NCBI RefSeq assembly: GCF_015207035.1
Contig: NZ_JADEXQ010000039.1
Location: 1-50,117, forward strand
Source of the DNA: Romeriopsis navalis LEGE 11480
GTDB lineage: Bacteria; Cyanobacteriota; Cyanobacteriia; Leptolyngbyales; Leptolyngbyaceae
Direction of reading: 5' to 3'
Length of the DNA: 50,117 bases
Shown here: positions 2 to 25,225 of the stretch, piece after piece
How the letters are laid out: the number at the start of each line of letters is the position of its first letter
How positions within the stretch are numbered: position 1 is the stretch's first letter
Program-made: the position numbers and the translations under genes
Notes under the pieces: generated by a model
Told to the model about the DNA's origin: nothing
The model's database searches: none
What the model saw: only the letters and a program-made list of their open reading frames with translations

Positions 2-121
2 TACAAAGGCGGAAAGAAAAAAATGCTTGGATTCTTCGTTGGACAAGTATTGAAGAAAACTGGCGGCAAAGCCGATCCAAAGCTCACAAACCAACTCGCA
101 GCCAAGAAGCTCAATCAGTAG
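2..121 (+). CDS. gatB: Asp/Glu-tRNA amidotransferase subunit B, C-terminal end (partial)
   Basis: The window opens inside a plus-strand gene; 39 codons and a TAG stop are visible. The residues contain [16 protein letters not shown] followed by a GGKADP turn and an ANQ-like tail, which is the conserved end of the GatB YqeY-like tail domain. GatB, in the GatCAB complex, activates and amidates misacylated Glu-tRNA(Gln) and Asp-tRNA(Asn) in the cytoplasm. The catalytic part lies upstream of the window. A strong hairpin about 100 bases after the stop ends the transcript. The identity rests on a short tail, but the motif is distinctive. Confidence 0.88.
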
Positions 122-222: not shown

Positions 223-271
223 CTCATCTAAAAAAGACATCGGACGAACTCCGATGTCTTTTTTAGATGAG
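223..271 (+). terminator. Perfect 22-bp hairpin terminator after gatB
   Basis: Two perfectly complementary 22-base arms (223-244 and 250-271) enclose a 5-base loop, CGAAC. The arms contain an A6 tract on the left and a T6 tract on the right, so the structure can act as a terminator in both directions. It isolates gatB from the repeated RNA units that follow. Confidence 0.85.
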
Positions 272-409
272 TCAACGAAGACACTGCTCTTACTCCTAAA
301 ACTCAGCTAGCAAAAACACTGAATTATTCACGCGTAAAAATACGCATACTAAGCACAGAGGAAAACAAATTTTACGTATTTACCGCAACAAAAAAAGTCG
401 ATAGGGGGT

Positions 410-438
410 GTGACCCCTCACCGCTAACGTGGCATAAT
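410..438 (+). promoter_or_regulatory. Promoter of RNA copy 1
   Basis: The -35 box GTGACC (410-415) and -10 box CATAAT (433-438) are separated by exactly 17 bases. A GGGGT-GTG-ACCCC inverted repeat (405-417) overlaps the -35 box and could be an operator. The predicted start is A445, 7 bases after the -10. Confidence 0.65.
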
Positions 439-444
439 TATTTC

Positions 445-497
445 AGTAGATGCACCCTGATGATAGGGGGAGTTGCCCTAGCGACTCTCCCTTTTTT
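445..497 (+). ncRNA. Putative 53-nt small RNA, copy 1
   Basis: The segment between the predicted start A445 and the T6 run at 492-497 carries no ORF. It has a single-stranded 5' part (AGTAGATGCA), a CCCT-GATGAT-AGGG mini-hairpin (455-468), and a terminator stem (466-491) that shares bases 466-468 with the mini-hairpin, so the two folds compete. The family is not one I recognise. The RNA assignment is inferred from promoter, terminator and repetition. Confidence 0.6.
466..497 (+). terminator. Terminator of RNA copy 1
   Basis: A 10-bp stem (466-475 with 482-491, including two G-T pairs) with loop CCCTAG is followed by six T residues. Confidence 0.8.
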
Positions 498-747
498 GTT
501 GGCAATTTTACAGCTTAGCAACATCTTCAGCTGCTATATAAATTATGAATCGAAGGTCCGAATTAGAAGAACATTTCAACGATCGGCAACATAACCTCAA
601 TGCCGAGCCAAAAATCAGACATGCGGAAATCAAACCAACAGAGCAGCAACAACAGCAAGGTAAAATATGCAAGTAGAACTACCGATTCGTCCCACAAGCT
701 AACATAACATTTACGTATTTACCGCAACAAAAAAGTCGATAGGGGGT

Positions 748-776
748 GTGACCCCTCACCACTAACGTGGCATAAT
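748..776 (+). promoter_or_regulatory. Promoter of RNA copy 2
   Basis: GTGACC (748-753), a 17-base spacer and CATAAT (771-776), as in copy 1. The GGGGT/ACCCC hairpin again covers the -35 box. The predicted start is A783. Confidence 0.65.
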
Positions 777-782
777 TATTTC

Positions 783-835
783 AGTAGATGCACCCTGATG
801 ATAGGGGGAGTTGCCCTAGCGACTCTCCCTTTTTT
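783..835 (+). ncRNA. Putative 53-nt small RNA, copy 2
   Basis: The predicted transcript is identical to copy 1 over all 53 bases. The first difference downstream is the base just after the T6 run. The flanking spacers are unrelated, so conservation stops at the unit boundaries. Confidence 0.6.
804..835 (+). terminator. Terminator of RNA copy 2
   Basis: Same GGGGGAGT / ACTCTCCC stem as copy 1, with loop CCCTAG and T6 (830-835). Confidence 0.8.
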
Positions 836-1089
836 ATTGGCAATTTTGAGACCAATGAAGGATTTGCAAATATCGCAGAAACAATAACTTGAAGATTAAC
901 TCCCCACAGACTTTTCTACGAGATTGCATAGCACCCAAAGCTCAGTCAAGGTGAAGTCAATTCCAATCAATAAAGCCAATAGACAAAACAAAATCGTAAA
1001 TGCCAATGCATAAGTAAAATCACTTATTGAACCGACAAGTTTACTACCAAATTTACGTATTTACCGCAACAAAAAAGCCAGTAGGGGGT

Positions 1090-1118
1090 GTAACCCCTCA
1101 CCACTAACGTGGCATAAT
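1090..1118 (+). promoter_or_regulatory. Promoter of RNA copy 3
   Basis: -35 GTAACC (1090-1095), a 17-base spacer and -10 CATAAT (1113-1118). The one change from the other copies lies in the loop of the GGGGT/ACCCC hairpin, so the hairpin itself is preserved. Confidence 0.65.
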
Positions 1119-1124
1119 TATTTC

Positions 1125-1177
1125 AGTAGATGCACCCTGATGATAGGGGGAGTTGCCCTAGCGACTCTCCCTTTTTT
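1125..1177 (+). ncRNA. Putative 53-nt small RNA, copy 3
   Basis: The predicted transcript is identical to copies 1 and 2. A chance ORF (1140-1436) starts inside it and runs through the spacer into copy 4; it has no protein-like features and is not annotated. Confidence 0.6.
1146..1177 (+). terminator. Terminator of RNA copy 3
   Basis: Identical stem-loop and T6 run (1172-1177). Confidence 0.8.
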
Positions 1178-1402
1178 ATTGGCAATTTTACAGTCCACAA
1201 ACAGATCAGGGGTGGTAATCAAACAAATTCGAAAAATGCACCGAAAAAGCCTAAACCATGACAATCAGATCAGCTTCAACAAAGAAACTCTAAATCTTGG
1301 CCAAGCAGCTAGAAAGGCTTTAAGTAATTACACGGAAGGAAAGAAGATTACCGGTAATAAATTTCCAAAGAAAACTGACTTTCTTCAAAAAGGGGTTTCA
1401 CC

Positions 1403-1425
1403 CCCCACCGGTTTTATGGCATACT
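1403..1425 (+). promoter_or_regulatory. Diverged promoter of RNA copy 4
   Basis: The -10 box is CATACT (1420-1425). The preceding 17 bases (1403-1419) have diverged from the other copies except for CACCG and the final TGG. A TTCACC at the -35 position (1397-1402) is a weak match. The upstream TTTACGTATT leader is missing, so regulation may differ from copies 1-3. Confidence 0.45.
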
Positions 1426-1431
1426 ATGCTA

Positions 1432-1484
1432 AGTAGATGCACCCTGATGATAGGGGGAGTTGCCCTAGCAACCCTCCCTTTTTT
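1432..1484 (+). ncRNA. Putative 53-nt small RNA, copy 4
   Basis: The first 38 transcribed bases (1432-1469) match copies 1-3 exactly although the promoter has diverged. Only the descending terminator arm differs: GCGACTCTCCC has become GCAACCCTCCC, which replaces one U-G pair by U-A and introduces one A-C mismatch. The RNA body is therefore the most conserved part of the unit. Confidence 0.58.
1453..1484 (+). terminator. Terminator of RNA copy 4
   Basis: Stem 1453-1462 with 1469-1478, one A-C mismatch, loop CCCTAG, then T6 (1479-1484). Confidence 0.75.
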
Positions 1485-1687
1485 ATTTTAAATGCAGCAC
1501 CCTTGATAGTTGCAGCGCAGGCAATACGCTTTGTCAGGGAACAAAGAACACTACTGACCTAATCGCTTTATCTAAAACTCGACAAGACATCGAAGCTTGG
1601 TTGAGTTCATCAGAGCATTGCTCCCCAAAGGTAAAAGCAATGTTTTTCTCTATGTATCTAATGTATAAAACTTTTCTTGTTTTCCTA

Positions 1688-1712
1688 TGAGGGGTTTGAC
1701 CCCTCATTTTTT
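1688..1712 (+). terminator. Hairpin terminator related to the array's -35 hairpin
   Basis: TGAGGGGT-TTG-ACCCCTCA forms an 8-bp stem with a 3-base loop, followed directly by T6 (1707-1712). The GGGGT/ACCCC core resembles the hairpin that overlaps the -35 box in the four RNA units, but here it is followed by T residues and no -10 box. It ends any read-through from the array before argJ. Confidence 0.7.
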
Positions 1713-1886: not shown

Positions 1887-3239
1887 ATGATGGGAAAACC
1901 TTGGCAACCGGTATCAGGTGGAATTACAGCCCCCAAAGGATATCAAGCAGCAGGAATTGCTGCCGGGCTCAAACCCTCCGGCCTACCCGACCTTGCATTA
2001 ATTCTTTCGGAAGGGGAAGCGATCGCGGCGGGTGTCTTTACGCTGAATCAAGTGTGCGCTGCACCAGTGACTTATTGCCGTGAACGACTAGCGGAAAAAG
2101 CTAGTGCCCGCGCAATTATCTGCAATGCGGGTCAAGCTAATGCCAGCACTGGAGCTGGTGGGTGGCAAGATACGATCGAAACCGTCGAGCTCGTCGGCAA
2201 ACAACTGGATATTCCCGCCGATTCAATTTTAGTGGCCTCCACTGGTGTAATTGGACAGCGGATCCGGATGGATAAATTGCGTGCCAGTATTCCGCAACTC
2301 GTCGACAGCCTCAGCATCGAAGGATCCACAGCAGCACAAGCAATCACGACAACCGACATTGTCACCAAGTCCATCGCCCTCGAAACAACGTTTGGCGATC
2401 GACCGGTCCGTATCGGCGGCATCGCCAAAGGGTCAGGCATGATCCACCCGAATATGGCAACAATGCTCAGCTTTATCACTTGTGATGCCGCTGTCTCACC
2501 GCATCTTTGGCAACAAATGCTGAATCGTGCGGCTAACAAAAGTTTCAACCAAATTACCGTCGATGGAGACACCAGCACCAACGATACGCTGATTGCCCTA
2601 GCCAACGGGCGATCGCGCACGCCCGCGATCACTGAGATGGGAGCAGCAGCCGAACGCTTAGAAGCAATGCTGACTGAAGTTTGTGTTTATCTCGCGAAAT
2701 CGATCGCCCGCGATGGTGAAGGTGCGACCTGTTTGATTGAGGTCCAAGTTAGCGGTGCCGAGGATGACCATGCCGCCCGACAGGTAGCCCGCACCGTCGC
2801 GGGTTCATCCTTGACCAAATCAGCGATCTTTGGCCGTGACCCAAACTGGGGCAGGATTGCCGGTGCGGCCGGGCGCGCCGGCGTGAATTTTGACCAACAG
2901 GAGCTGAAAATTTGCTTAGGTGATTTTGTGCTGATGCAATCGGGTGAACCTTTGCCTTTCGATCGAGAAGCAGCCAATGCTTATCTAGTGCAACAAGCCA
3001 ATGCCAGCCAGCGCCCCTTTGAATCAGCCAGCACGACTAGCACCGCACAAAGTAATGAGTTGATGATTATGAACGGGAATCAACCGGTTAGCTTCGAGCG
3101 AGCAACGGCTTCGACCCAATTTGTGGAACACCCAGTGATCATTCAACTTTCGATCGGTAGTGGCGCTGGTCAGGGCACCGCATGGGGCTGCGATCTGAGC
3201 TATGACTACGTCAAGATTAATGCGGAATACACCACCTAA
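1887..3239 (+). CDS. argJ: Bifunctional ornithine acetyltransferase / N-acetylglutamate synthase
   Basis: ArgJ transfers the acetyl group of N-acetylornithine to glutamate, recycling it in cytoplasmic arginine synthesis. Seen here: the N-terminal GGITAPKGYQAAGI motif, the KGSGMIHPNMATML motif in which Thr192 is the expected autoproteolysis residue and nucleophile, and the C-terminal GTAWGCDLSYDYVKINA signature. The ATG at 1887 is preferred over upstream TTG codons at 1872 and 1875, because TTG 1872 lies only about 6 bases from the predicted transcript start. At 450 residues it is longer than the usual 400-413. The excess is a Ser/Thr/Asn-rich insertion at about residues 371-413 in the beta chain, before the final conserved strand. 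It appears to be transcribed alone. Confidence 0.96.
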   Translation: MMGKPWQPVSGGITAPKGYQAAGIAAGLKPSGLPDLALILSEGEAIAAGVFTLNQVCAAPVTYCRERLAEKASARAIICNAGQANASTGAGGWQDTIETVELVGKQLDIPADSILVASTGVIGQRIRMDKLRASIPQLVDSLSIEGSTAAQAITTTDIVTKSIALETTFGDRPVRIGGIAKGSGMIHPNMATMLSFITCDAAVSPHLWQQMLNRAANKSFNQITVDGDTSTNDTLIALANGRSRTPAITEMGAAAERLEAMLTEVCVYLAKSIARDGEGATCLIEVQVSGAEDDHAARQVARTVAGSSLTKSAIFGRDPNWGRIAGAAGRAGVNFDQQELKICLGDFVLMQSGEPLPFDREAANAYLVQQANASQRPFESASTTSTAQSNELMIMNGNQPVSFERATASTQFVEHPVIIQLSIGSGAGQGTAWGCDLSYDYVKINAEYTT

Positions 3240-25195: not shown

Positions 25196-25225
25196 AAAAA
25201 AGGGTGAGCCATGACAGCTCACCCT
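25196..25225 (-). terminator. Terminator of fba
   Basis: On the minus strand AGGGTGAGC (25225-25217) pairs with GCTCACCCT (25209-25201) around a 7-base loop, followed by T6. It lies 35 bases after the fba stop. Confidence 0.85.

Follow-up and report, generated by a model that had tools for sequence, protein, structure and literature searches.

A tandem small-RNA array between gatB and argJ

The genome of the cyanobacterium Romeriopsis navalis LEGE 11480 (6.47 Mb; here G000) contains, within the 50,117-nt stretch that we analyzed as a whole and refer to as the window (all positions are counted over this 50-kb stretch), an array of four small-RNA genes located between gatB and argJ. Judged by their sequence these genes almost certainly encode NsiR1, and each of them is preceded by a palindrome of the HetR type. 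NsiR1 is a small RNA known from heterocysts, the nitrogen-fixing cells of Nostoc, where its expression depends on HetR and is induced by nitrogen stress; HetR is the master regulator of heterocyst fate. A repeat search yielded a 139-nt unit at 371–509, 709–847, 1051–1189 and 1358–1496, with spacings of 338, 342 and 307 nt, in agreement with an earlier sequence-only reading that had proposed four promoter–RNA–terminator units at these intervals. In BLAST comparisons with copy 2, identity is 98% for copy 1, 97% for copy 3 and 82% (over 96 nt) for copy 4. Each unit comprises a palindrome, an extended −10 element, a predicted start (A445, A783, A1125 and A1432, read from the sequence), a predicted RNA of 53 nt and a hairpin followed by T6; the start, the RNA and the hairpin with T6 had been described before. 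The bit scores in the following list refer to the Rfam model of NsiR1 (RF02399) and to our own covariance model R1, both of which are treated below.

372..396, + strand: A-rich element TTTACGTATTTACCGCAACAAAAAA upstream of copy 1; also before copies 2 and 3, not before copy 4
406..420, + strand: HetR-type box of copy 1, GGGTGTGACCCCTCA, fitting GGGnnnnnCCC and GGGTCTAgCCCagCA as reported in PMC4192349
430..438, + strand: extended −10 element of copy 1, TGGCATAAT; TGGCATA.T is kept in relatives
445..497, + strand: NsiR1 copy 1, seed 446–461, hairpin 465–492, T-run to 497 (RF02399 33.6 bits, R1 69.2 bits)
744..758, + strand: HetR-type box of copy 2 (motif match)
768..776, + strand: extended −10 element of copy 2, TGGCATAAT (sequence and sigma-70 scan)
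783..835, + strand: NsiR1 copy 2, seed 784–799, hairpin 803–830 (RF02399 34.8 bits, R1 69.2 bits)
1086..1100, + strand: HetR-type box of copy 3 (motif match)
1110..1118, + strand: extended −10 element of copy 3, TGGCATAAT (sequence)
1125..1177, + strand: NsiR1 copy 3, seed 1126–1141, hairpin 1145–1172 (RF02399 34.8 bits, R1 69.2 bits)
1393..1407, + strand: HetR-type box of copy 4 (motif match)
1417..1425, + strand: extended −10 element of copy 4, TGGCATACT, of the four copies the nearest to the consensus of relatives
1432..1484, + strand: NsiR1 copy 4, seed 1433–1448 (RF02399 30.8 bits, R1 68.9 bits)

The terminator hairpin of copies 1–3 has a predicted energy of −20.5 kcal/mol, and none of 200 shuffled sequences was as stable; that of copy 4 has −16.0 kcal/mol, and since 12 of 200 shuffles were as stable, this hairpin is by itself unexceptional. 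The spacers, which the sequence-only reading had called unrelated, are so in general, apart from one weak pair whose score was reached by 2 of 100 shuffles; because of their unrelatedness Tandem Repeats Finder did not report the array. A BLAST search of the 6.47-Mb genome found no further occurrence of the complete unit, and the notion of a tandem family of independent small-RNA genes, every one equipped with a promoter and a terminator, thus withstood the check for a dispersed repeat. Less accurate was the statement that the array is free of open reading frames (ORFs), as a mechanically called ORF of 98 amino acids (aa) at 1140–1436 overlaps it; we judged this ORF to be spurious-looking.

Identity of the RNA

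At the gathering threshold an Rfam search gave no match for the array, so that the RNA looked new. In a permissive search all four copies matched RF02399 over model positions 1–60 with E-values of 1e-4 to 1e-3; their scores (see the list) are below the gathering score of 39 bits, and the next-best Rfam match in the array region had an E-value of 1.1. The 5′ seed GTAGATGCACCCTGAT is common to the array copies and to the NsiR1 genes that RF02399 drew from other genomes; the terminator hairpin differs. With up to three mismatches the seed occurs four times in the window (0.26 occurrences expected), and the array shows the layout of NsiR1, i.e. a 5′ seed followed by an intrinsic terminator within about 53–60 nt. 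As a side observation, the seed (447–461, with the equivalent positions of the other copies) holds ATGCACCCTGAT, readable as a tiny ORF start Met-His-Pro-Asp; it lies only a few nt from the 5′ end of the RNA, and the downstream frame differs between the copies.

The covariance model R1 was built from 39 relatives, with the window left out, which were picked from 61 distinct HetR-box RNAs; its alignment excludes deviant hairpins and some near-repeats, and R1 stands for the main hairpin type only. On the array copies R1 scored 68.9–69.2 bits (E about 2.5e-17), and on six other NsiR1 copies of the host genome 19.4–30.9 bits. A hairpin-only match at 25196–25224 (17.8 bits) is probably a terminator. 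In a search across 39 relatives, 33 of them with a match, the subtype scored at least 51.8 bits and the rest at most 40.8 bits among the matches listed. In the subtype hairpin six of nine base pairs changed on both sides, a number reached by 7 of 500 shuffles, and 93.1% of the alignment cells pair, compared to 55.7–70.1% in slid controls. On this sequence evidence the array RNA forms a distinct subtype of NsiR1. The sequence-only reading had not recognized the RNA and had regarded Nostoc NsiR1 as a parallel of differing sequence and context. Of this, the parallel and the differing context (gatB and argJ instead of hetF) stand; the supposed difference in sequence gave way to the covariance models and the common 5′ end.

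A HetR-type box at the place of DIF1

The NsiR1 promoters of Nostoc are reported to carry the DIF1 motif TCCGGA (PMC9045159). None of the four array copies has TCCGGA upstream; at its place all four carry GGGTnnnACCCnnCA, which fits the published HetR site (PMC4192349). According to the same paper, the HetR site upstream of hetP is GAGGGGTCTAACCCCTC, crystal structures point to GGGnnnnnCCC as the part needed, and the related hetZ site reads GGGTCTAgCCCagCA. The GGGnnnnnCCC core and the outlying CA are present in all four copies, and the centre of GGGGTnnnACCCC, about 33 nt before the model start, coincides with the TCCGGA spot of other NsiR1 copies. Within the window GGGTNNNACCC occurs six times (0.35 expected); four of these are the boxes and one is a fifth palindrome downstream of the array. 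The 17-base-spaced promoters that had been proposed for the units were found by a sigma-70 scan for copies 1 and 2, not for copies 3 and 4, and the scan gave three sites in the region where 3.5 would be expected in shuffled sequences; what is conserved instead is an extended −10 element together with a palindrome whose centre lies about 34 nt ahead of the start.

In order not to select loci by the motif, we examined 30 loci that R1 had found from the RNA alone. All 30 have GGGn5CCC at a distance of 28–30 nt ahead of the seed (29 scored by script and one, L218, by eye, its seed having one change and hence being missed by the script), compared to 0.05% in shuffled upstream sequences. The 29 scripted loci comprise 34 copies, of which 33 have GGGn5CCC and the remaining one TCCGGA. 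In the pattern CCCnnCA, which was not part of the search, the C and the A are each kept in 29 of the 30 copies having a 29-nt gap. The gap between box and seed is also 29 nt in 83 of 134 box copies of 115 named loci listed (24–34 nt allowed); box, −10 element and seed keep their register across families. We consider it quite probable that HetR controls the box.

In a genome-wide search GGGTNNNRCCCNNCA gave 39 matches (some palindromic sites being counted on both strands) versus 14 for the reversed pattern. Thirty of these were turned into loci; 19 fall within ORFs, seven in intergenic DNA, and the other four are the boxes of the window, which the script had placed inside the spurious 98-aa ORF. 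The intergenic sites are the fifth palindrome (both strands) and sites at a TldD-like gene (both strands), at rlmN and a histidine kinase, at a DUF2949 gene and at the gene of a 394-aa protein. In the last case (L242, G000:C24:16023) TCCGGA adjoins the HetR-type site GAGGGGTGAGACCCTC upstream of the gene, whose product has no Pfam or NCBIfam match; we considered this protein as a candidate for HetZ, a view that its translation did not support, and no solved structure matched. Another HetR-type palindrome, GGGGTCTGACCCC, at about 2434 of L164 (G000:C106), precedes a sigF gene by about 90 nt.

Location and copy number

The following features flank the array:

2..121, + strand: 3′ end of gatB, the upstream neighbour (sequence; 81% over 26 aa to GatB of another locus)
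223..271, strandless: perfect 22-bp inverted repeat with T-runs in the interval between gatB and the array (read from the sequence), a probable two-way terminator
1687..1707, + strand: fifth palindrome ATGAGGGGTTTGACCCCTCAT, followed by T6 (motif searches)
1887..3239, + strand: argJ, the downstream neighbour (TIGR00120, 527.7 bits)

By its sequence the fifth palindrome might be either the terminator of the array or an additional HetR-type site; a conserved HetR site upstream of argJ was considered and rejected, as a palindrome is present there in only 2 of 27 loci. The 115 named loci were selected by the box pattern, with several from some genomes, and the figures hold for the loci listed: an upstream gatB of the same strand is present in 52, a downstream argJ in 27 and both genes in 20, and the rest include loci on short contigs and in other places. 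A Moorena locus (L153) has NsiR1 in reverse orientation between the two genes, and a locus of Moorena sp. SIO3I8 (L088) has six HetR-box NsiR1 copies with neither gatB nor argJ nearby. In the R1 set, gatB precedes NsiR1 in 20 of the 30 loci, argJ follows it in 13, and 8 loci have both. For the window's own family, the question raised by the sequence-only reading, i.e. whether the unit sits beside gatB or argJ in related genomes, can be answered with yes: gatB upstream and/or argJ downstream is found in 23 of 23 R1 loci, window included. Two of the seven R1 loci outside this family have gatB, four have neither gene and one (L218) was not scored for them. Members of the family are e.g. Leptolyngbya sp. 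FACHB-321, Scytolyngbya sp. HA4215-MV1 and Phormidium tanganyikae, whose 56-mers equal those of G217, G015 and G244.

The exact box pattern is present in 35 of the 42 genomes of this family (33 single-copy, two multicopy) and missing in seven; the only multicopy genomes are the host with four copies and G237 with three. Elsewhere, too, several box copies occur beside gatB and argJ, e.g. three each in Symploca (L048), Symplocastrum (L050) and Rivularia (L108). In the 52 nt compared from the seed onward, copy 4 of the array does not differ from the single copy of the relative G177. As its −10 element is also nearer to the family consensus, copies 1–3 look derived and copy 4 is probably ancestral. 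The array is thus best read, from the sequence, as a conserved gatB/argJ locus, single-copy in most cases, that has been amplified locally; a dosage effect of the copy number, as had been proposed, is neither supported nor refuted.

Distribution of NsiR1 and HetR

In a sample of 388 genomes of the class we scored NsiR1 as present at E<1e-5 with RF02399 and HetR by PF03574. NsiR1 occurs in 200 genomes among the matches listed, HetR in 194 and both in 192; the genomes above the RF02399 gathering score also number 200, which is an agreement in number only. NsiR1 with a HetR-type box was found in 127 of the 388 genomes (122 of these with HetR), DIF1-type NsiR1 in 185, and both promoter classes in 119. 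Reversed box and DIF1 patterns had no match among the matches listed, and in control genomes RF02399 gave weak matches in 5 of 14 at E≤0.1, none of them over the cut-off. Since related genomes are non-independent, Fisher values of the co-occurrence are not to be taken as probabilities. NsiR1 is not confined to family f32, which holds named Anabaena (G245 and G365 share their 56-mers with L063 and L144) and in which 7 of 23 genomes have the box and 22 have DIF1; an NsiR1-like RNA has already been noted in Limnospira (PMC8400943). Eight genomes carry NsiR1 without a PF03574 match (G006, G021, G093, G182, G243, G304, G367 and G385); with the host's own HetR as query, a fragment at a contig end was found in G182.

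The host itself has one HetR (NF009718, 563.5 bits; curated cut-off 489), which aligns over residues 2–298 with the HetR of PDB 3qod. The sequence group of 3qod includes 4izz, 4j00 and 4j01, some of which presumably hold DNA. A short ORF ending in RGSGRFEW upstream of hetR is a patX candidate. No nifH above the cut-off is present in the host genome; the best match (219.5 bits versus 394.35) is probably a ChlL-type protein. The host is presumably filamentous, non-heterocystous and non-diazotrophic.

Further NsiR1 copies and the hetF link

The host genome contains six further NsiR1 copies: contigs C202 and C159 carry two each, C7 and C25 one each. TCCGGA is present upstream of five of them, the exception being the C25 copy. 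In L161 (G000:C7:43000-52000) the DIF1-type NsiR1 (2451) lies 67 nt downstream of argC (1308–2384) on the same strand; with argC adjoining this copy and argJ adjoining the array, two NsiR1 loci are next to arginine-biosynthesis genes. A difference between the promoter classes in the strand polarity of the hairpin was also considered and dropped, as the pattern was not clean.

The C25 copy is oriented antisense to a HetF match and is found 408 nt ahead of it. Such a match was found in 29 of 30 chosen genomes and in one not at all; since it is under the cut-off in nearly all genomes (only two pass), ‘hetF-like’ is the safe word. After leaving out 2 of the 29 hetF-like loci with less than 300 nt upstream, 27 genomes remained, and 15 of these have an antisense NsiR1 upstream of the hetF-like gene, never a sense one (families f1, f10, f17, f18, f19, f20, f25, f28, f32 and f38). 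If the transcript of the hetF-like gene starts upstream of the C25 copy, its leader would hold a perfect 16-nt complement to all array copies. The duplex of the seed with this leader has −30.7 kcal/mol, the best of 500 shuffles reaching −27.6; full-length RNA–RNA duplex energies were uninformative, and the seed alone was used instead. In Nostoc, NsiR1.1 is reported to inhibit hetF translation, with the central copies partly able to do so, and alr3234 is named as a second target (PMC9045159). That hetF would be a main target of NsiR1 in the host is possible, the chances being slightly short of even.

Proposed mechanism and alternative explanations

Considering all of the above, the likely explanation as a whole is a HetR-activated NsiR1 array, followed by pairing with hetF and feedback. 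Each NsiR1 copy would be transcribed from its own promoter: active HetR would bind GGGTnnnACCCnnCA about 34 nt before the start, recruit the polymerase to the extended −10 element and activate rather than repress. Whenever HetR is active, the four copies would then directly raise the NsiR1 pool, alongside the six further genomic copies. The single-stranded, nearly invariant 5′ seed may pair with mRNAs, among which the hetF leader is the strongest candidate, and possibly with other leaders. HetF would be lowered as in Nostoc, with feedback on HetR; less HetF would be expected to alter the HetR level and cell division, HetF having been linked to division in Anabaena (PMC8406250).

Several observations weigh against this explanation. 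In seven genomes with NsiR1, HetR was not found even with the host's own HetR as query, and four of these seven have an exact HetR-box copy at a contamination of ≤5% or a completeness of 62–99%. Conversely, two genomes (G164 and G238) have HetR without NsiR1, and their HetR is 51% identical to that of the host. The R1 training copies were chosen by the box pattern, so that the subtype is box-selected, though the 30 individual loci are not. The 3,177-nt locus of the single hetP-like gene does not contain GGGn5CCC, and hetZ was not located in the host genome, which leaves the HetR regulon without an internal positive control. The HetF match of the host, with an E-value of 1.9e-182, has 608.7 bits and thus misses the NCBIfam cut-off of 1200, and as 12 of the 27 genomes are without an antisense NsiR1 at hetF, hetF is not a general reason for the conservation of the seed. 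Exact HetR-box NsiR1 copies without a HetR found are those of G006 (L227; 99% complete), G304, G385, G093 and G367, and among these genomes G006 is the hardest to reconcile with the explanation. Regarding the hetP-like locus (L234, G000:C168), we also observed that the gene follows a 455-aa ORF, by its translation a HlyD-type secretion protein by look, and that on its other side two ORFs resemble transposase pieces.

Box copies in genomes like G006 would be accounted for if the RNA were NsiR1 and the palindrome served a different regulator, or if HetR acted on it as a repressor, and HetR is reported to bind also promoters without the palindrome (chromatin immunoprecipitation sequencing paper, PMC4192349). 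We consider this unlikely: the box agrees with the HetR site in its core as well as in the outlying CA, it occupies the −35 place that DIF1 has in other NsiR1 copies, and HetR is present in 122 of the 127 genomes with a box copy. A stronger competitor, which we rate as a real possibility though somewhat less than an even one, holds that HetR drives the array and that NsiR1 has targets other than hetF, e.g. hetP-like genes or other mRNAs, with the hetF copy being one of several local antisense arrangements. The 12 genomes without the hetF arrangement and the second Nostoc target alr3234 (PMC9045159) speak for it; the perfect 16-nt complement upstream of the host's own hetF-like gene speaks against it, and the pairing of the seed (21-nt 5′ end only) with the start region of the hetP-like gene is no better than chance, being matched by 498 of 500 shuffles, so that we rejected this gene as a target.

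The other two alternatives are already contradicted. That the array encodes an unrelated, undescribed small RNA merely resembling NsiR1 might be concluded from the empty Rfam search at the gathering threshold, but this is extremely improbable in view of the full-length sub-threshold matches in all four copies, the common 16-nt seed and the 69 bits with R1. Nearly identical units with unrelated spacers would also suit a repeat that is mobile or dispersed and has no regulatory role, an idea that we find hardly credible: within the genome the full unit was found at this locus only, single copies hold the gatB/argJ place across the family, and box, −10 element and seed stay in register across families.

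HetR-driven transcription of the array, the reading that we prefer, might be part of a broader picture, in which an ancient HetR module, extending far beyond heterocyst formers, has NsiR1 as its RNA arm: a HetR-box copy, often at gatB/argJ, as the direct output of HetR, DIF1 copies elsewhere and an antisense hetF copy in many lineages would make up a HetR–NsiR1–HetF loop that predates heterocysts and is tuned in some lineages by tandem amplification. This generalization is tentative, and we would give it not quite even chances.

Novelty and comparison with known systems

NsiR1 is an established RNA family; what appears to be new here is the promoter class, together with the locus and the amplification. 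As the RNA belongs to NsiR1 and its context is conserved, the term ‘undescribed system’ used by the sequence-only reading is too strong; on the other hand, the HetR-type promoter class, the conserved location and the fifth palindrome at 1687–1707 were absent from it. In the open-access literature searched we did not find a HetR-type box at NsiR1, the gatB–argJ locus or the co-distribution with HetR reported, though an earlier mention may exist. A 2024 paper speaks of the role of hetR and patX in non-heterocystous filamentous cyanobacteria as a mystery (PMC11298460), and the array provides a short, measurable candidate for a direct HetR output without heterocysts, with a defined promoter box. 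It also suggests that the NsiR1–hetF link of Nostoc predates heterocysts. One and the same genome has two NsiR1 promoter classes, of which the box class would be expected to respond to HetR directly and the other via DIF1 and HetZ (PMC7377430).

With NsiR1 of Nostoc/Anabaena sp. PCC 7120 (RF02399) the array shares the seed GTAGATGCACCCTGAT, a length of about 53–60 nt, the intrinsic terminator, a probable HetR link and the tandem arrangement of copies with their own promoters, the box copy being single in most relatives. One further copy in the host genome is antisense upstream of a hetF-like gene, like NsiR1.1 of Nostoc (PMC9045159). In contrast to Nostoc, the array has a HetR-type box in place of DIF1, a hairpin subtype of its own and an Rfam score below gathering, and it lies between gatB and argJ instead of beside hetF, in a host apparently without heterocysts. 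The boxes resemble the HetR sites of hetP and hetZ in the GGGTnnnnCCCnnCA core and the outlying CA; unlike these sites, they precede a small RNA at a fixed distance of about 34 nt before the start, and binding is predicted. RNA162 of Limnospira indica PCC 8005 is likewise a 57-nt NsiR1-like RNA in a non-heterocystous host, the likeness being one by description; the part of that report available to us gives no tandem array, promoter or locus (PMC8400943). Finally, the HetR–PatX module is reported to tie HetR to functions beyond heterocyst formers (PMC11298460, PMC12756182), and a patX-like ORF lies upstream of hetR here. While PatX serves as precursor for an inhibitory peptide, the product that NsiR1 would add to this module is an RNA output.

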